The notes under the pieces: model-generated
Told to the model about the DNA's origin: nothing
Database searches by the model: none
Seen by the model: the letters and a program-made list of their open reading frames with translations, nothing else
In this document: one piece after another, positions 2,650-53,488 of the stretch
Numbering within the stretch: the stretch's first letter is position 1
Layout of the letters: each line of letters starts with the position of its first letter
Made by a program: the position numbers and the translations under genes
Virus record (IMG/VR): IMGVR_UViG_3300009182_003747
Span: 40,112 to 104,111 of that record
Strand: one strand, 5' to 3'
DNA from: a virus
Length of the DNA: 64,000 nucleotides

Positions 2650-3390
2650 TTAATATATCATGTCGCTGACTGGAATGCTGTAGCTCTCGATCATCTCTTT
2701 CTCAAGCGCGGCTCTCTCTTGAACCGCCTCGTTGTAGATCTGCTGGCCGTTGAACGTCATGCCACCCGGTAGCTGCATTCCCTGGTACTTCTTGATGTTC
2801 TCTCCCCACTGCTGCTTTATCAGGCACGTGGCGTACCTAGCGAGCCAGCGATCGCCCCAGGTCTTGGTGTATACGTCTGGATCGATCACCTGATAGGCCT
2901 CGACGATGAGGTAGTTACCTACACTCAGCTTTCCCCAGTCCATGTCGATGTATAGCTTATTGACGTGTCGATTATAGCGGATAGGCTGCTTGCCGACGAG
3001 AATCTGCTCTAGAAACTGAATGTGCGTCAATGCCATGACGTACGGTACCATCGACACGGATGTCAGAGTGTACAAGTCGTTGAGGGCGATCTGATAGCGG
3101 ATGTTGAACAGGTTGTTGGTGTTGAGAGAAGCGCCGACGTCAAAGATGTTTATCACGCCGATGATGTTGTCCGGCATCGTGATGTACTTGTTGTCTATGT
3201 CGGTCTGAGTTACAGGCCACTTGTAGTAAGTCTTATCGGTACCGTCGAAGTGATAGTCTGCAAAGTACAGGAGTGCCTCAGAGATGCGGTCGTCTACCTG
3301 ATCGTCGTCGACGTTGATCTCGATGACGGGCTTACCCAGCTTGCGCAGGCAGTACTGCTTGAATGATTCTCTACTGGTAGGTATAGCCAT
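2650..3390 (-). CDS. gp13: Neck protein gp13
   Basis: Neck protein that binds the portal and gp14. The 246-aa product begins with MAIPTSRESFKQYCLRKLG, typical of gp13, and contains the conserved stretch around WGDRWLARYATCLIKQQWG (about residues 175-195). It is shorter than T4 gp13 (309 aa), as in cyanophage-like relatives. An AGGAGT ribosome site lies 7 bases upstream of ATG 3390, and a late-promoter box lies at 3411-3418, so this is the first gene of the packaging/neck operon. Confidence 0.93.
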   Translation of the reverse strand: MAIPTSRESFKQYCLRKLGKPVIEINVDDDQVDDRISEALLYFADYHFDGTDKTYYKWPVTQTDIDNKYITMPDNIIGVINIFDVGASLNTNNLFNIRYQIALNDLYTLTSVSMVPYVMALTHIQFLEQILVGKQPIRYNRHVNKLYIDMDWGKLSVGNYLIVEAYQVIDPDVYTKTWGDRWLARYATCLIKQQWGENIKKYQGMQLPGGMTFNGQQIYNEAVQERAALEKEMIESYSIPVSDMIY

Positions 3391-3410
3391 AAGTAACTCC
3401 TGTTTATCAG

Positions 3411-3418
3411 TATTTATA
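3411..3418 (-). promoter_or_regulatory. T4-type late promoter (TATAAATA)
   Basis: The minus strand reads TATAAATA here, 21 bases upstream of the gp13 start. This is the exact T4 late-promoter box, and it stands in the 30-bp gap between gp13 and the next minus-strand gene. It would drive gp13 through gp17. Confidence 0.8.
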
Positions 3419-3420
3419 AG

Positions 3421-4995
3421 TTACTTGATAACATACACGCGAACTTCGCCGCGAGATCCTGGTTGATTAGTAATGCCGCAGCCGCCGCCGCCTGGAGTAC
3501 TAGAACCCGTAGTGCCATTGGCACCGTATCCGCCAAATATAGAAATACCAACGCCTGCGGTTGTTGTGCCCATGCCGCCGCCGCCGCCAAAGACAGAATT
3601 TCCAGCAGCTCCTGTCATAGCCGCACCTCCGGCTCCACCAAATATAGATGTTCCACCATTGCCGGCAACACCTCCGCTGGTACCGCCGCCGCCACCACCA
3701 CCGAACGTGCTAATACCTCCAGCAGTACCAGAAGCACCGCCAAGTGGTCCTCCAGCTGTTCCGCGGCCGCCGTTGTTAAATGTACCGCCCCCTCCGCCGC
3801 CAAGTCCAGTACTGCCTGCTCCGCCGCCTCCGTACGCTAATAAAGTTCCAAAGCTAGAATTACTCCCGTTTGCTCCAGCCGTGCCGCCTGATCCAACTGT
3901 CACACTAGCAGAAGTTGCTATAGAGCTGTTAGACAATAGAAACATTCCCTGTTCATATCCACCGCCACCACCACCTGAGTTATTAGTCGAGTTATTTCCA
4001 CCACCGCCGCCACCCCACATCATTACAAACACTGTTTCATTTCCAGATAAAAACGGCCGTATAAAGTTATTCGTGTCATTTAACGGATTAATCCAAGTTT
4101 GCGTAGTGGTTGAATCCGTAAAGATCTGAGTATTGACTATGGCACCTAGAGGAACAGATGCTCCTGGAAAGCCAATTCCATTCCAAGTAACACCGCTTAG
4201 AGTGAGAGATGGAACAGATATGCCATAGGGAGTTATGATGCTGGTATTACCGGTGTTAAACGTGTTAGAATTTACGTTGACTGTTCCGTATGTGCCAGTG
4301 CCAACTCTAATGGTCGTTGTATCACTGAATGCAAAGTTAGAAAAATCAGAAGTAAAAGTACTAGACCCAGGAGGCGCGTACGAGAATGTAAACCCACTTC
4401 CGCTAAACTCACAATTCATTATAATTCTTATTCCATAGTACTGACCCGCAACAAGATTAGCTGTAGCTATATTTGGTCCAGCACTTGAGTTGATGTTTAA
4501 GTTCGAGTACAAAGCATTGGCACTTTGAAGATACTGGTTAGTGCTGTTAGCAATGCCTAGACCGGCATTTGCTCCTAAAAATATACCTATTAAGTTATAA
4601 GCATAACTTGCGTCTGTAGACAGATTAAAAGACCACTGACCTGTTGTTCTCGGCAGCAAGTATCCAGTCCACATATAAGAAGTTGAAATCTGTACTCCAT
4701 CAAGAGTATCAGAGCTATTATTCAAGCTTCTGAAGTCAAAATAAGTGGTATAACCTATGTTATTAGCATAGTAGTTGCTGTCGAAGATATGATTTATATT
4801 TCCATCCCCATACCAGCCGATACCTTGCTGTGCGTACTCTGTGAATAAAAGACCATTACTGAGAGGGCCAGAAGCGACCACAGACGGGCCAATAGACGTA
4901 TTATTAGTATTAGCTATAGTCAAGCCATTAAAAGATAAGCTTGAAGAAGTTATGACAGAGTTAGATATATTTGCATTGGCTACTATTAATTGCAT
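3421..4995 (-). CDS. Glycine-rich adhesin with PA14/GLEYA-like domain
   Basis: Probable receptor-binding virion protein. Residues 1-45 are a short fibre-type head shared loosely with its neighbours. Residues about 50-245 look like a PA14/GLEYA-like sugar-binding fold (GWYGDGN near 60, WTGYLLPRTTGQWSFNLS near 110). Residues about 325-512 are a glycine-rich lattice with many GGGGG runs introduced by MMWGGGGGG, and the protein ends in RGEVRVYVIK. The last two parts recur in the next two genes (5000-6568, 6568-7617), so the three are paralogues with different middle domains. Glycine runs of this kind form polyglycine-II sandwiches in gp38-type adhesins; that structure is inferred here. No catalytic motif is seen. 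Confidence 0.72.
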   Translation of the reverse strand: MQLIVANANISNSVITSSSLSFNGLTIANTNNTSIGPSVVASGPLSNGLLFTEYAQQGIGWYGDGNINHIFDSNYYANNIGYTTYFDFRSLNNSSDTLDGVQISTSYMWTGYLLPRTTGQWSFNLSTDASYAYNLIGIFLGANAGLGIANSTNQYLQSANALYSNLNINSSAGPNIATANLVAGQYYGIRIIMNCEFSGSGFTFSYAPPGSSTFTSDFSNFAFSDTTTIRVGTGTYGTVNVNSNTFNTGNTSIITPYGISVPSLTLSGVTWNGIGFPGASVPLGAIVNTQIFTDSTTTQTWINPLNDTNNFIRPFLSGNETVFVMMWGGGGGGNNSTNNSGGGGGGYEQGMFLLSNSSIATSASVTVGSGGTAGANGSNSSFGTLLAYGGGGAGSTGLGGGGGGTFNNGGRGTAGGPLGGASGTAGGISTFGGGGGGGTSGGVAGNGGTSIFGGAGGAAMTGAAGNSVFGGGGGMGTTTAGVGISIFGGYGANGTTGSSTPGGGGCGITNQPGSRGEVRVYVIK

Positions 4996-47590: not shown

Positions 47591-49147
47591 ATGGTGGACA
47601 TACCGGGCGGTATCTACAGGACAGTAACTGGTGCCGCCAAGGCAGTTGGCAGAGAGACTCTCGCCGGAGTAGTAGGTCCGCGCGGAGCCGACGCACTTAT
47701 AAGAAACTTCTCAAGCGCAGCTGCTACTAACACGAGCGCCATGCAGGGAGTTATGCGCGCTGTAGTTGAGTCTAATAGATTAAACACTCAGATCTACAAG
47801 GAAGTTCGCTCTCAGAGTGTTCTTCTCGACAGCATGAACATGAATATGCTGGCGATAAAGAACGGCATAGCGAACTTGACATATCAATTGTCCGGCGGTG
47901 GAAATAGATCTACCAATGTAATATCACAGAGTGGAAACTCGGAAGACACAGGTCTGCTGGGTATGATTACATCTGGCGCAGTAGACTCTGTGGTACCAAT
48001 TATTGTTCCAGTTGTAGCCGCCGTGCTGGCCGGAATATTTGGGGCTAACTATAAAGATATAGTAAAATACTTAAAAAAAGACCCCTATGAAAAAGGCGGT
48101 AGCACAGGTCAAGAATCTCGTACTCGCAATAACTACGCTCGCGATCCAGAGACCGGTCAGTACTCAGAAGAAGCATTTAAGAAAGAGACGACAAGACCGG
48201 GTTTCAATCCCGACAACTTAGTATATGACTACAATAGCGATGTTAAGTCGGGTGCACCAGTTCCCCCTTATATAGAGAAGTACGTTGAGCAGCTCAGAGA
48301 CGAATCCAAAAAGAGGGGAGAAGAAACTCCTAAGTCAAGTACAAACTTAGGATTTAAGCAAGATATCTCTCCGACTCCATCACCCGATACGACAAAGTCA
48401 TCTGTTCTGGGCATGCCTATAGAGAGAGTCCATGAGCTCTATAAGAAGTTTGGTGCGCCCGGTCCATCTGGTTCAAATGGAATGCTTCCCGATAACGCTC
48501 TGACTACAGTAGATGGAACTAAAGCAGAATCAGCAACTGCCGCAGACTATCTCAAGATGAAAGAAGCAGCTGCGAAAGACGGCGTAAGCTGGGGTAAGCC
48601 GAGCGGTTATAGAACTTACGACGAGCAGGTAGCACTCGCTGAGCAGAAAGGAATATACGGGCACGGCGGACTGGCCGCTACTCCTGGAAGATCTAACCAT
48701 GGTCTCGGCATGGCCTTTGACCTAAGCGGTATGAACGACAAGGCCTTCAAGTGGCTTGAGCAGCATGGTACAGACTATGGATTTAAGACTATACCAGGAG
48801 AAAAGTGGCACTGGGAGCATACAGCACAGAGACAAGCCGCTCTTGGAACAGGCGCCAGCAGGCAGGCGAGCGAAGAGTCATCAAGCAAAGTTGCAATGCT
48901 AGAGCCGGGCAATAGTACTGGCGATAATATAGCGAGTAACTCTATAAAGAGAGAAGAACAGCAAGCAGTATCTCCTTCAGTTATCATGCAGAGTTCTGCG
49001 TCCGATACAGATCACGCGAGAGCCAATCCTATAATGCCAAAAGGCGCAAATGATCCAAGTCCACACAGCGTGCCGGATGTGCATAGTAGGTCCATCATAG
49101 CGAGTCTGTTTGGCATGGACGCCGACCCTAGACTAGGAACTGCATAG
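47591..49147 (+). CDS. Membrane-anchored M15-type peptidase (cell-wall hydrolase)
   Basis: 518-aa modular protein. Residues 1-115 are a helical module (PGGIYRTVTG at the start, IYKEVRSQSVLLDSMNMNML, IKNGIANLTYQL). Residues about 130-153 are a hydrophobic segment (VVPIIVPVVAAVLAGIFG). A long polar linker follows. Residues about 330-412 are a zinc M15/VanY-like D,D- or L,D-peptidase: SGYRTYDEQ, SNHGLGMAFDLS (His and Asp ligands) and EKWHWEHT (catalytic/ligand Glu and His). The C-terminal about 25 residues (IIASLFGMD) recur in the next protein. It could be the endolysin, or a virion hydrolase or tape-measure-like protein; placement after the holin favours lysis. Confidence 0.83.
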   Translation: MVDIPGGIYRTVTGAAKAVGRETLAGVVGPRGADALIRNFSSAAATNTSAMQGVMRAVVESNRLNTQIYKEVRSQSVLLDSMNMNMLAIKNGIANLTYQLSGGGNRSTNVISQSGNSEDTGLLGMITSGAVDSVVPIIVPVVAAVLAGIFGANYKDIVKYLKKDPYEKGGSTGQESRTRNNYARDPETGQYSEEAFKKETTRPGFNPDNLVYDYNSDVKSGAPVPPYIEKYVEQLRDESKKRGEETPKSSTNLGFKQDISPTPSPDTTKSSVLGMPIERVHELYKKFGAPGPSGSNGMLPDNALTTVDGTKAESATAADYLKMKEAAAKDGVSWGKPSGYRTYDEQVALAEQKGIYGHGGLAATPGRSNHGLGMAFDLSGMNDKAFKWLEQHGTDYGFKTIPGEKWHWEHTAQRQAALGTGASRQASEESSSKVAMLEPGNSTGDNIASNSIKREEQQAVSPSVIMQSSASDTDHARANPIMPKGANDPSPHSVPDVHSRSIIASLFGMDADPRLGTA

Positions 49148-49148
49148 T

Positions 49149-50660
49149 ATGGCAGATTCACCAGGTGGGCTATATAGGACAACTACTGAAGATCAAATAT
49201 CCTCTGCAACAAAGAGCTTTGCGGGACAGACAGCTTCATTTAGAAATGTATCTAGCGCTGTTACCACATCTAATAGAATAACTAATCAGGTCTATAAAGA
49301 AGTCAGAAATAATACCGCTCTTCTCAATAGTATAAACTTGAATATGATAGGTCTAAAGAACGGCATAGCGAACTTGAGCTATCATCTCTCTAGACAGACG
49401 TCAAATAAACCTGATACAATTGGTTCACAAAAAAGAGAAAATGGAAGAGGAATCACAGAGTACCTCATACCTGTTGCCGCTGGTGTTATAGCAGCTCTGG
49501 GACTATCTTCTACTACAACTAATGCCAAAGACGATAAACCGCCACCAGAGAGCAGTGGTTCTACTGCGTCGCCTGATGTCAAAAAAAGTGATGTGCCGTC
49601 TGACGTTAAAAAGAGTGACACAACTGGACAAAGTATTCCTGCGCCAGAGGGTAGAACAGAAGCTCCAGCCGCAGCGCCTGTAAAGTCTCAGCCTGCTCAG
49701 TCGCTGCAAACACCAGCGAGTAAAGCGCCTGATGCAGAGAAAGTACAGCAAGCTCCTGCAGTGCCTGCACCAGCAAGTCCATCTGTACCCCCTATAGCTG
49801 CAACTCCACTTCCGCCTCTCAAAGAAGCTAAATCAGAGAAACCAGCGCCAGTTCAAGGGCCTCATACTCCTGGATCTCCATGGAATAAAGATCGTATAGA
49901 GGGAAAAGATATCCCTCCGCCCGCAGAGAAGCCAGTTCCTCTCCCTCCTGTAAGACCGCCAGAAGAGAAGAATGAGCCAGTTAAAAAAGATAAAGCTGCT
50001 GGTGATTCTAATTTAGTACGCATGAATAAACGCACATATGTGGGTAAGCCTGAATTTATATCCGCATCAGACATACTCAGCTATCTCATGGGTAAGACTG
50101 ATAGAGTTCATGCAATAGGTATCATTGCAAACATGGAGCGCGAGTCGAGCTTCAGTCCAAATGTTCTTGGGGATGATAAAACATCAGGGGGACTATTTCA
50201 GCACCATCTTGATAGATTCAAAGCGATGAAGGACTACGTGGGTCCAAACTGGACTAGTGATTGGAAGAAGCAGATCGACTATGCCTTCAATGAGAAACAA
50301 ATGAATGATTATCTGGCTAAGAAATTCAAGAATAGCGAGGCCGCGGCTTCTGAATTTGTTGATATATTTGAACGTCCTAAAGATGGGACAAAGGCAAAAA
50401 GCGGTGCTATAGCAAACGCAAAGAAATACGATAAGTCATCTGATGCTGGAGATACTCTCAATGATAGGTCTATGAATACAGAGGCTAATAGAACTGCAAT
50501 GGCAAACAGACCCATCGTACTTCCTGTTCCAAGCCAGAGAGGCACGCAGATGACTGCCAATAGAGGTTCAGGCTCTGGAAGATCTGGTAGAAGTAATCCA
50601 CTCTTTGCCGGTGAGATCATCGGTCATCTGTTTGGATTGGATGACCATCAGGCTGCATAA
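49149..50660 (+). CDS. Membrane-anchored tail-lysozyme-type hydrolase
   Basis: 503-aa paralogue of the preceding protein with a different enzyme. Residues 1-80 repeat its N-terminal module (SPGGLYRTTT, QVYKEVRNNTALLNSINLNM, LKNGIANLSYHL). A hydrophobic segment (YLIPVAAGVIAALGLSS, about 103-122) and a Pro/Ala/Lys-rich linker (about 125-285) follow. Residues about 300-430 match the phage tail lysozyme domain: AIGIIANMERESSFSPNVLG with the likely catalytic Glu, SGGLFQHHLDRF, and KQIDYAF. The end, EIIGHLFGLDD, parallels IIASLFGMD of its partner. Peptidoglycan cleavage is probable; whether it acts in the virion or at lysis is open. Confidence 0.8.
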   Translation: MADSPGGLYRTTTEDQISSATKSFAGQTASFRNVSSAVTTSNRITNQVYKEVRNNTALLNSINLNMIGLKNGIANLSYHLSRQTSNKPDTIGSQKRENGRGITEYLIPVAAGVIAALGLSSTTTNAKDDKPPPESSGSTASPDVKKSDVPSDVKKSDTTGQSIPAPEGRTEAPAAAPVKSQPAQSLQTPASKAPDAEKVQQAPAVPAPASPSVPPIAATPLPPLKEAKSEKPAPVQGPHTPGSPWNKDRIEGKDIPPPAEKPVPLPPVRPPEEKNEPVKKDKAAGDSNLVRMNKRTYVGKPEFISASDILSYLMGKTDRVHAIGIIANMERESSFSPNVLGDDKTSGGLFQHHLDRFKAMKDYVGPNWTSDWKKQIDYAFNEKQMNDYLAKKFKNSEAAASEFVDIFERPKDGTKAKSGAIANAKKYDKSSDAGDTLNDRSMNTEANRTAMANRPIVLPVPSQRGTQMTANRGSGSGRSGRSNPLFAGEIIGHLFGLDDHQAA

Positions 50661-52715: not shown

Positions 52716-52807
52716 TGGTAGGCGTGGAGGGATTCGAACCCCCTCGAGAACGGTAATCTGCCGCTGAAAGGCTTATAAGGCCTCCCTGTGTACCAACACC
52801 CACGCCT
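52716..52807 (-). tRNA. tRNA with UAU anticodon by simple folding, long variable arm (isotype uncertain)
   Basis: 92 bases on the minus strand. Acceptor AGGCGTG/CACGCCT pairs fully, discriminator A, and CCA is encoded. T-arm GGGGG-TTCGAAT-CCCTC is normal. Anticodon stem GAGGC/GCCTT closes loop CTTATAA, giving UAU, which would read the Ile codon AUA. The variable region is 24 bases with its own GCGG/CCGT hairpin, a class II trait not expected of tRNA-Ile, and the D region is 3 bases short with G at position 8. It could be a divergent or decaying tRNA. Confidence 0.75.
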
Positions 52808-52812
52808 ATGAT

Positions 52813-52888
52813 TGGCGATCACCAAGGGACTCGAACCCCTAACCTAGAGAGTAGAAATCTCTTGCTCTTCCAGTTGAGCTAGGTGACC
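52813..52888 (-). tRNA. tRNA-Arg (UCU)
   Basis: 76 bases on the minus strand. Acceptor GGTCACC pairs with GGTGATC (one G-T), discriminator G, and CCA is encoded. D-stem GCTC/GAGC, anticodon stem AGAGA/TCTCT with loop TTTCTAC giving UCU, and T-arm AGGGG-TTCGAGT-CCCTT. It reads AGA, a codon this phage uses often. It is 5 bases from the UAU tRNA. Confidence 0.93.
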
Positions 52889-52895
52889 AATTAAA

Positions 52896-53111
52896 TTATT
52901 TTTTGTCAATAAATGCTTTTAACTCTTCTGCCAATAAAATAATATCCGATTTGCTTGGATATTTCAAAGCATTCATAGCAGCAATTCGATTTGGGGAATT
53001 TGGTTCGGTTGTATCTCTGATACGTTCCATGGCCGCAAAATATTCACCAGTTAACTGGCTTTGCGCATAATGAAGAAGATCAAAACGAATTTCAAATGGT
53101 GTTTTTGTCAT
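52896..53111 (-). CDS. Small conserved phage protein, 71 aa
   Basis: ATG 53111 is preferred because AGGAGA lies 9 bases upstream and the protein then starts MTKTPFEIRFDLLHYAQSQL, a form seen in other T4-like phages; the longer frame to 53171 runs into the tmRNA tag region. Helical and charged, with no enzyme motif. It lies between the tmRNA and the tRNAs, in the same direction, and may be on the tmRNA transcript. Function unknown. Confidence 0.68.
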   Translation of the reverse strand: MTKTPFEIRFDLLHYAQSQLTGEYFAAMERIRDTTEPNSPNRIAAMNALKYPSKSDIILLAEELKAFIDKK

Positions 53112-53154
53112 AGTAGTCTCCTGTGTCTGTGTTTGTGTAGTGAGTCCGTTATTT

Positions 53155-53452
53155 GATAGGGTGCAACTCATACCCCAGACTTATCTTTTAAGCAGCAATT
53201 TTCATTGCGGAATAATTAATATTGTCATTATGTGCTTTTTTTGCAGATAACTTATTTATGCAGTCGTCTCGGTCCGCTTTTAACACACCTGTCGATCCTA
53301 TTTCGCCCCCATCAAAGATACATCGGGTGTTCGGAGAAACCTATTACACCATATTTGTTCCGACTATGGAGACCGATGTATCCATGGTGGAGGCGGCGGG
53401 TACCGCCCCCGCGTCCAGTATGTCTATTCTGCTTTCGTCATCAACAACAGCA
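53155..53452 (-). ncRNA. ssrA: Circularly permuted (two-piece) tmRNA
   Basis: Minus strand, in order. Acceptor piece (about 53452-53385): CTGGAC, T-stem GCGGG/CCCGC with loop GGCGGTA, acceptor CGCCTCC and A-CCA (CCA 53387-53385). Intervening segment (53384-53311): arms GATACATCGG and CCGATGTATC pair perfectly. Coding piece from 53310: GGGGGCG pairs with CGCCTCC including the G3-U70 alanine identity pair, then a D-loop-like GGATCGACAGG; CAGGTGTG can pair with CATACTG as helix P2. Resume codon GCA at 53244 follows TTATCT (U and A at -5/-4). Tag AKKAHNDNINYSAMKIAA, stop TAA 53190-53188. A hairpin (53185-53155) follows. Rescues stalled ribosomes and tags the nascent chain. Exact mature ends are estimated. 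Confidence 0.9.
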
Positions 53453-53457
53453 TATAT

Positions 53458-53488
53458 TATTTATACCACGTTTTAGATTATTTGTCAA
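53458..53488 (-). promoter_or_regulatory. Overlapping host-type and late promoters of the tmRNA
   Basis: Minus strand: TTGACA (53488-53483), 17-base spacer, TATAAA (53465-53460), and the same bases form an exact late box TATAAATA (53465-53458). Both would start transcription near 53450, at the 5' side of the acceptor piece. It overlaps the end of the upstream gene. Confidence 0.82.

Follow-up and report, generated by a model that had tools for sequence, protein, structure and literature searches.

The window, a stretch of 64,000 nucleotides corresponding to bases 40112–104111 of a 104,111-base IMG/VR virus record, carried a complete circularly permuted tmRNA gene on the minus strand at positions 53488–53139, within a T4-like phage contig. 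On this strand the 3′ half came first and was followed by an encoded CCA, a spacer and the 5′ half. According to the Rfam alignments and the sequence, the 3′ piece (53385–53448, minus strand) extended from the start of the Rfam permuted-tmRNA match through a P2 strand and the T-arm to the 3′ acceptor strand, with CGCCTCC-A-CCA ending at 53385. The 5′, mRNA-like piece (53139–53310, minus strand) began at 53310 with the acceptor strand GGGGGCG and GGATCGACAGG, and contained a D-like loop, the second P2 strand, the tag frame and a 3′ pseudoknot, up to the end of the RF01849 match at 53139. The two acceptor strands formed an intact 7-bp stem with a G3–U70 pair (alanine identity), and this pair was present in all 178 unique viral loci, which had been chosen for a 7-bp acceptor. 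The first-pass annotation had named the same parts at the same places, including the G3–U70 stem and spacer arms that pair perfectly, and each of them was recovered.

The covariance-model search that it had proposed was also positive. Rfam model RF01849 (alpha_tmRNA) matched 53492–53139 with 94.5 bits (gathering score 50, E 1.9e-24) and RF04321 (tmRNA_permuted) matched 53448–53188 with 93.3 bits (gathering score 47, E 9.5e-17); both scores were about twice the cut-offs, full-length and far above chance. ARAGORN reported a permuted tmRNA at 53097–53478 and a tag reading frame at 53188–53244 on the minus strand, encoding AKKAHNDNINYSAMKIAA followed by a stop codon. Upstream of the gene, at 53458–53488 on the minus strand, there is a promoter-like pattern of sigma-70-like boxes, TTGACA-17-TATAAATA, and similar boxes were seen 5′ of other viral tmRNAs. 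A consensus promoter scan missed the boxes in the window because the second one is TATAAA; we take this second box also to fit the T4 late promoter TATAAATA.

The tmRNA gene was located beside two tRNA genes and the genes for a late coactivator, gp59 and gp32. In profile searches the neighbouring genes matched the T4-type families late coactivator, helicase loader, gp32, PhoH-like protein and exonuclease, so that T4-type replication and late-transcription genes surround the tmRNA. ARAGORN placed tRNA-Arg(TCT) at 52813–52888 and tRNA-Ile(TAT) at 52716–52807, both on the minus strand and 3′ of the tmRNA. The T4-like setting with tRNAs and gp32 had been proposed from the sequence and was borne out. 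Directly 3′ of the tmRNA, a small open reading frame (52896–53111, minus strand) encodes 70 amino acids from an ATG at 53111, with AGGAG upstream; it was conserved in two other viral loci, L128 and L132, and had no match in a PHROG search. The related virus L128, found via a neighbouring protein, encodes neighbour proteins 50–81% identical to those of the window and keeps the tmRNA gene at the same place. No SmpB gene was found in the 104-kb record, which may be incomplete. A rescue function of the phage tmRNA, which the first-pass annotation had suggested, would therefore depend on the SmpB of the host.

Two-piece tmRNAs of phages have been published, and the novelty claimed for this one was overstated. 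PMC9004378 describes 53 two-piece tmRNA structures from phages, of which 50 come from marine or aquatic samples, and locates the tmRNA of phage Melnitz directly upstream of the late coactivator gene; PMC11915505 presents a tmRNA database with 79 phage tmRNA sequences. As a tmRNA, the gene in the window is a further member of this known group. Like the window, Melnitz (MZ577097; PMC9004378) represents a T4-like phage in which a permuted tmRNA precedes the genes for the late coactivator and the helicase loader. Unlike the window cassette, the Melnitz spacer is about 140 nt long and contains a small open reading frame; a glutamine riboswitch lies just after the Melnitz tmRNA, whereas an Rfam search found none in the window. 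The tmRNA section of PMC9004378 does not discuss the spacer. The alphaproteobacterial permuted tmRNAs (RF01849/RF04321) share the gene order, the G3–U70 acceptor, the T-arm and the tag frame with the window.

The RNA might act as a decoy or poison: rather than rescuing ribosomes, it would compete for them, for SmpB or for charging with the tmRNA of the host. A form of the phage DS6A tmRNA without a tag frame is reported to inhibit the endogenous tmRNA in E. coli (PMC11915505), and the tag in the window is longer than the tags of its relatives. However, the window has lost none of the acceptor, T-arm, tag frame or 3′ pseudoknot, and the pseudoknot strands TGAGT/ACTCA of the window are changed to TGAGC/GCTCA in L128, a compensatory change. 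The retained parts and the compensatory change suggest selection for a working tmRNA, and we consider the decoy very improbable.

The spacer of a split tmRNA gene is usually seen as a discarded segment. In the window the spacer cassette comprises 74 nt (53311–53384, minus strand) between the CCA and the 5′ acceptor strand, and it would be excised in the two-piece model. The first-pass annotation had read it merely as pairing arms; no other part of the tmRNA gene is as conserved, and it is also the least explained part of the locus. Between L128 and the window the spacer is nearly unchanged, while the tag and the flanks have diverged. The same spacer was present in 23 other viral contigs, which were found by scanning viral contigs with spacer-derived patterns, a method that favours conserved members; each copy lay inside a permuted tmRNA (two of the contigs begin close by). 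In the compared pairs, identity was 87–99% in the spacer versus 49–86% in the upstream 3′-half region and 39–59% in the 5′ piece; part of this high spacer identity could come from recent spread rather than constraint, and the two are not fully separable. Within this family, 27 of 28 pairs showed a higher similarity in the cassette interior than in the flanks. The L131 group carries the same cassette inside a different acceptor stem, GGGCCAG/CTGGTCC, in which G3–U70 is kept, and shares none of the tested neighbour genes with the window. This rewritten acceptor was seen in L131, L133–L135, L137, L139–L142, L144, L146 and L148, and ARAGORN missed the tmRNA of L131, the one locus of the group that was tested.

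The 15 distinct members of the spacer family aligned almost without gaps. From this alignment, the spacer is predicted to fold as an 11-bp closing helix around an H-type pseudoknot with conserved loops. The predicted closing helix P1 (53373–53383 with 53316–53326, minus strand) is well supported by covariation, since all 11 pairs are kept in 15 of 15 distinct members and four pairs are changed on both sides; U–G intermediates in P1 fit an RNA of the minus strand. The predicted hairpin P2 (53349–53369, minus strand), formed by CCATA (53369–53365) and TATGG (53353–53349), is moderately supported by double-sided changes in two of its six pairs, including TCATA/TATGA in L152. The pseudoknot helix P3 (53331–53363, minus strand), with TCGGA (53363–53359) and TCCGA (53335–53331), is predicted purely from complementarity, which is identical in all 15 distinct members (crossing-stem score p 0.02 versus shuffles). 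The fold as a whole was 97.6% paired, its covariation score was reached by 0 of 500 shuffles, and sliding the partners destroyed the pairing. A covariance model of the spacer (R1) gave at least 88 bits for the members and nothing comparable otherwise; weaker hits covered the closing helix only, or were these sites read on the opposite strand. The invariance of the core is partly a result of pattern searching, and when each core half was left free in one scan, no variation appeared except at the positions seen in the alignment.

Several identities for the spacer were considered and rejected. A coding function was excluded for the window spacer by the lack of any open reading frame of at least 20 codons on the tmRNA strand and by indels of 1–2 nt between members. 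A known riboswitch or ribozyme was ruled out, as an Rfam search of the spacer at E up to 10 returned only tmRNA models and two chance matches. A host origin was rejected on the basis that the spacer patterns had no exact match in 84,980 GTDB bacterial and archaeal species genomes, and host spacers of at least 50 nt were unlike the viral ones. A search of GenBank phages with the spacer gave no meaningful match. In the open-licence literature searched, neither the spacer element nor cassette exchange was found to be described, although an earlier mention is possible.

To place the window spacer among others, spacers were taken from viral and host loci that have a 7-bp acceptor and CCA. A motif scan of IMG/VR gave at least 120 stretches, mostly permuted tmRNA loci with a few standard tmRNAs. 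Viral spacers had a median length of 76.5 nt and 70% of them were at least 50 nt long, compared with a median of 30 nt and 6% for sampled GTDB hosts; the viral fractions are not unbiased estimates, because the window family was collected with cassette patterns and the other loci with conserved tmRNA motifs, and because a further viral scan fixed part of the closing helix. The 178 unique viral loci held 21 recurring cassette families and 75 singletons of at least 50 nt. In 29 pairs of tmRNA genes the flanks were at least 93% identical and the cassettes unrelated; in L059 and L073, for example, the flanks are identical and the cassettes differ. The same was seen in the cultured Ruegeria phages DSS3P8 and V10, whose spacers differ throughout, with only two other differences in the aligned gene region.

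Unrelated spacers between similar tmRNAs were at first sight a virus-specific pattern, and this was weakened by the host control, in which 39 of 103 pairs with similar flanks had dissimilar spacers. Replacement is thus also common in hosts, and we therefore relied on the reverse pattern, in which conservation is higher in the spacer than in the mature RNA. Viral loci showed it in 87 pairs (52 loci), and sampled hosts in 0 of 1653 pairs. Neither nested folding nor crossing-stem scores supported strong structure as a property of viral spacers in general: the interiors of most viral cassettes folded no better than shuffles (nested folding, with pseudoknots left out), and crossing stems were not enriched across the viral cassettes overall. 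Compensatory changes inside the cassette were also found in the L029, L080 and L296 families.

These comparisons bear on the view that the spacer is filler, cut out and discarded. Nothing in it but the closing helix would then be of importance, and cassettes would be exchanged incidentally, through the frequent recombination of phages within the conserved halves of the tmRNA. The short, fast-changing spacers of hosts, the stability of most viral interiors, which does not exceed that of shuffles, and the many singleton cassettes agree with this view. Against it stand the greater conservation of the window cassette than of the mature tmRNA in all but one of the compared pairs, the compensatory changes in spacer hairpin P2 and inside other cassette families, the purifying selection on spacer proteins described below, and a constant length of 74 nt with invariant loops, which filler would not be expected to show. 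We regard filler as improbable.

In other viral loci the slot encodes small proteins. The L022 spacer encodes MKNPLVQRVSKWMFRAYIVWSICADITLLAGIIYLVFF, with the stop codon TGA just before GGGG, and relatives of this protein were found in five other loci (L045, L076, L096, L109 and L122); the L022 and L076 contigs carry T4-type genes. Further groups of spacer reading frames comprised L012, L030 and L054, and L042 and L107. These frames often have a Shine-Dalgarno-like site, and several stop at a TGA before the 5′ acceptor strand. In three spacer-protein families the finite dN/dS values were 0.06–0.33, indicating purifying selection, with two pairs having saturated synonymous sites for which dN/dS is printed as 0. 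Seven spacer proteins tested against PHROG had no significant match, and the one searched against GenBank phages had none. The protein-coding frames in other slots support the view that the slot carries selected content, even though the window cassette is non-coding.

A different role for the cassette would be that of a cis-acting maturation or switch element, which presents the two cut sites, perhaps responds to a metabolite or protein, and sets the amount of two-piece tmRNA. The closing helix joins both cut sites and is general in viral spacers, with a mean of 9.6 bp in viruses (shuffles 4.4) versus 6.0 bp in hosts (shuffles 4.5). The pseudoknot with conserved loops may resemble the layout of small riboswitches, and the glutamine riboswitch just after the Melnitz tmRNA is an instance of a small RNA fold near a phage tmRNA. 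However, no riboswitch family matched the window spacer at E up to 10, the glutamine riboswitches RF01739 and RF01704 included, and near-identical tmRNA halves with unrelated interiors indicate that no one interior is needed for maturation. The cis-acting element is possible in our judgement, and on the unlikely side. The same near-identical halves favour cargo over a part of the tmRNA or a cis-acting switch.

We consider it probable that the window gene is a working phage two-piece tmRNA whose spacer is a separate unit that has spread between diverged tmRNA genes and is most likely a cargo RNA. As judged by comparison between loci, the slot, the exchange of spacers and the selected structure were shown; that the spacer is released and acts in trans as a functional RNA is what we infer from them. 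By analogy with the family, host tRNA-processing enzymes would cut one transcript after the CCA at 53385 and before the G at 53310. The two tmRNA pieces would pair via the acceptor stem and the tmRNA P2, the G3–U70 pair would direct charging with alanine, and together with host SmpB the RNA would rescue stalled ribosomes and add a degradation tag. The cutting would also free the 74-nt spacer, with the tmRNA gene providing promoter and processing, and the freed RNA may act during infection on a cellular target of its own. For viral permuted tmRNAs in general, we lean slightly towards a slot that carries exchangeable units, either structured small RNAs or small proteins translated from the precursor, which move independently of the tmRNA, the 74-nt pseudoknot RNA of the window being one such mobile RNA.

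If viruses use this slot for expressed, cut-out small RNAs or microproteins, genes would be packed and traded in a new way, and the many cassette families would form a defined set that can be tested. Two cultured phages with one laboratory host, whose cassettes differ and whose tmRNA halves hardly do, provide a concrete system. A cargo slot could also help to explain why phages keep tmRNA genes.

Some further observations were made on these loci. ARAGORN found no tRNA in the L344 spacer; this spacer, which ends at about 213, looks as though made up of tRNA pieces, having two T-arm-like motifs (GACGGTTCAATTCCGTC and GAAGGTTCAAATCCTTC). In Melnitz (L385), a reading frame at 3332–3508 runs through the tmRNA spacer with GGAGAA before it, and by eye it resembles the L094 spacer frame. 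Permuted tmRNAs that their deposited annotation lacks were found in Ruegeria phages DSS3P8 and V10, Rhodobacter phage RcXuper and Mesorhizobium phage Cp1R7A-A1. DSS3P8 and V10 (L002, L003) also carry, likewise outside the deposited annotation shown, a GOLLD RNA at 1853–2286 (RF02032, just above threshold), with about 160 nt between its end and the permuted tmRNA downstream. In the window, the adjacent genes at 47591–49147 and 49149–50660 have similar N-termini and, by eye, different peptidoglycan-hydrolase-like ends, and L128 seems to hold a similar pair.
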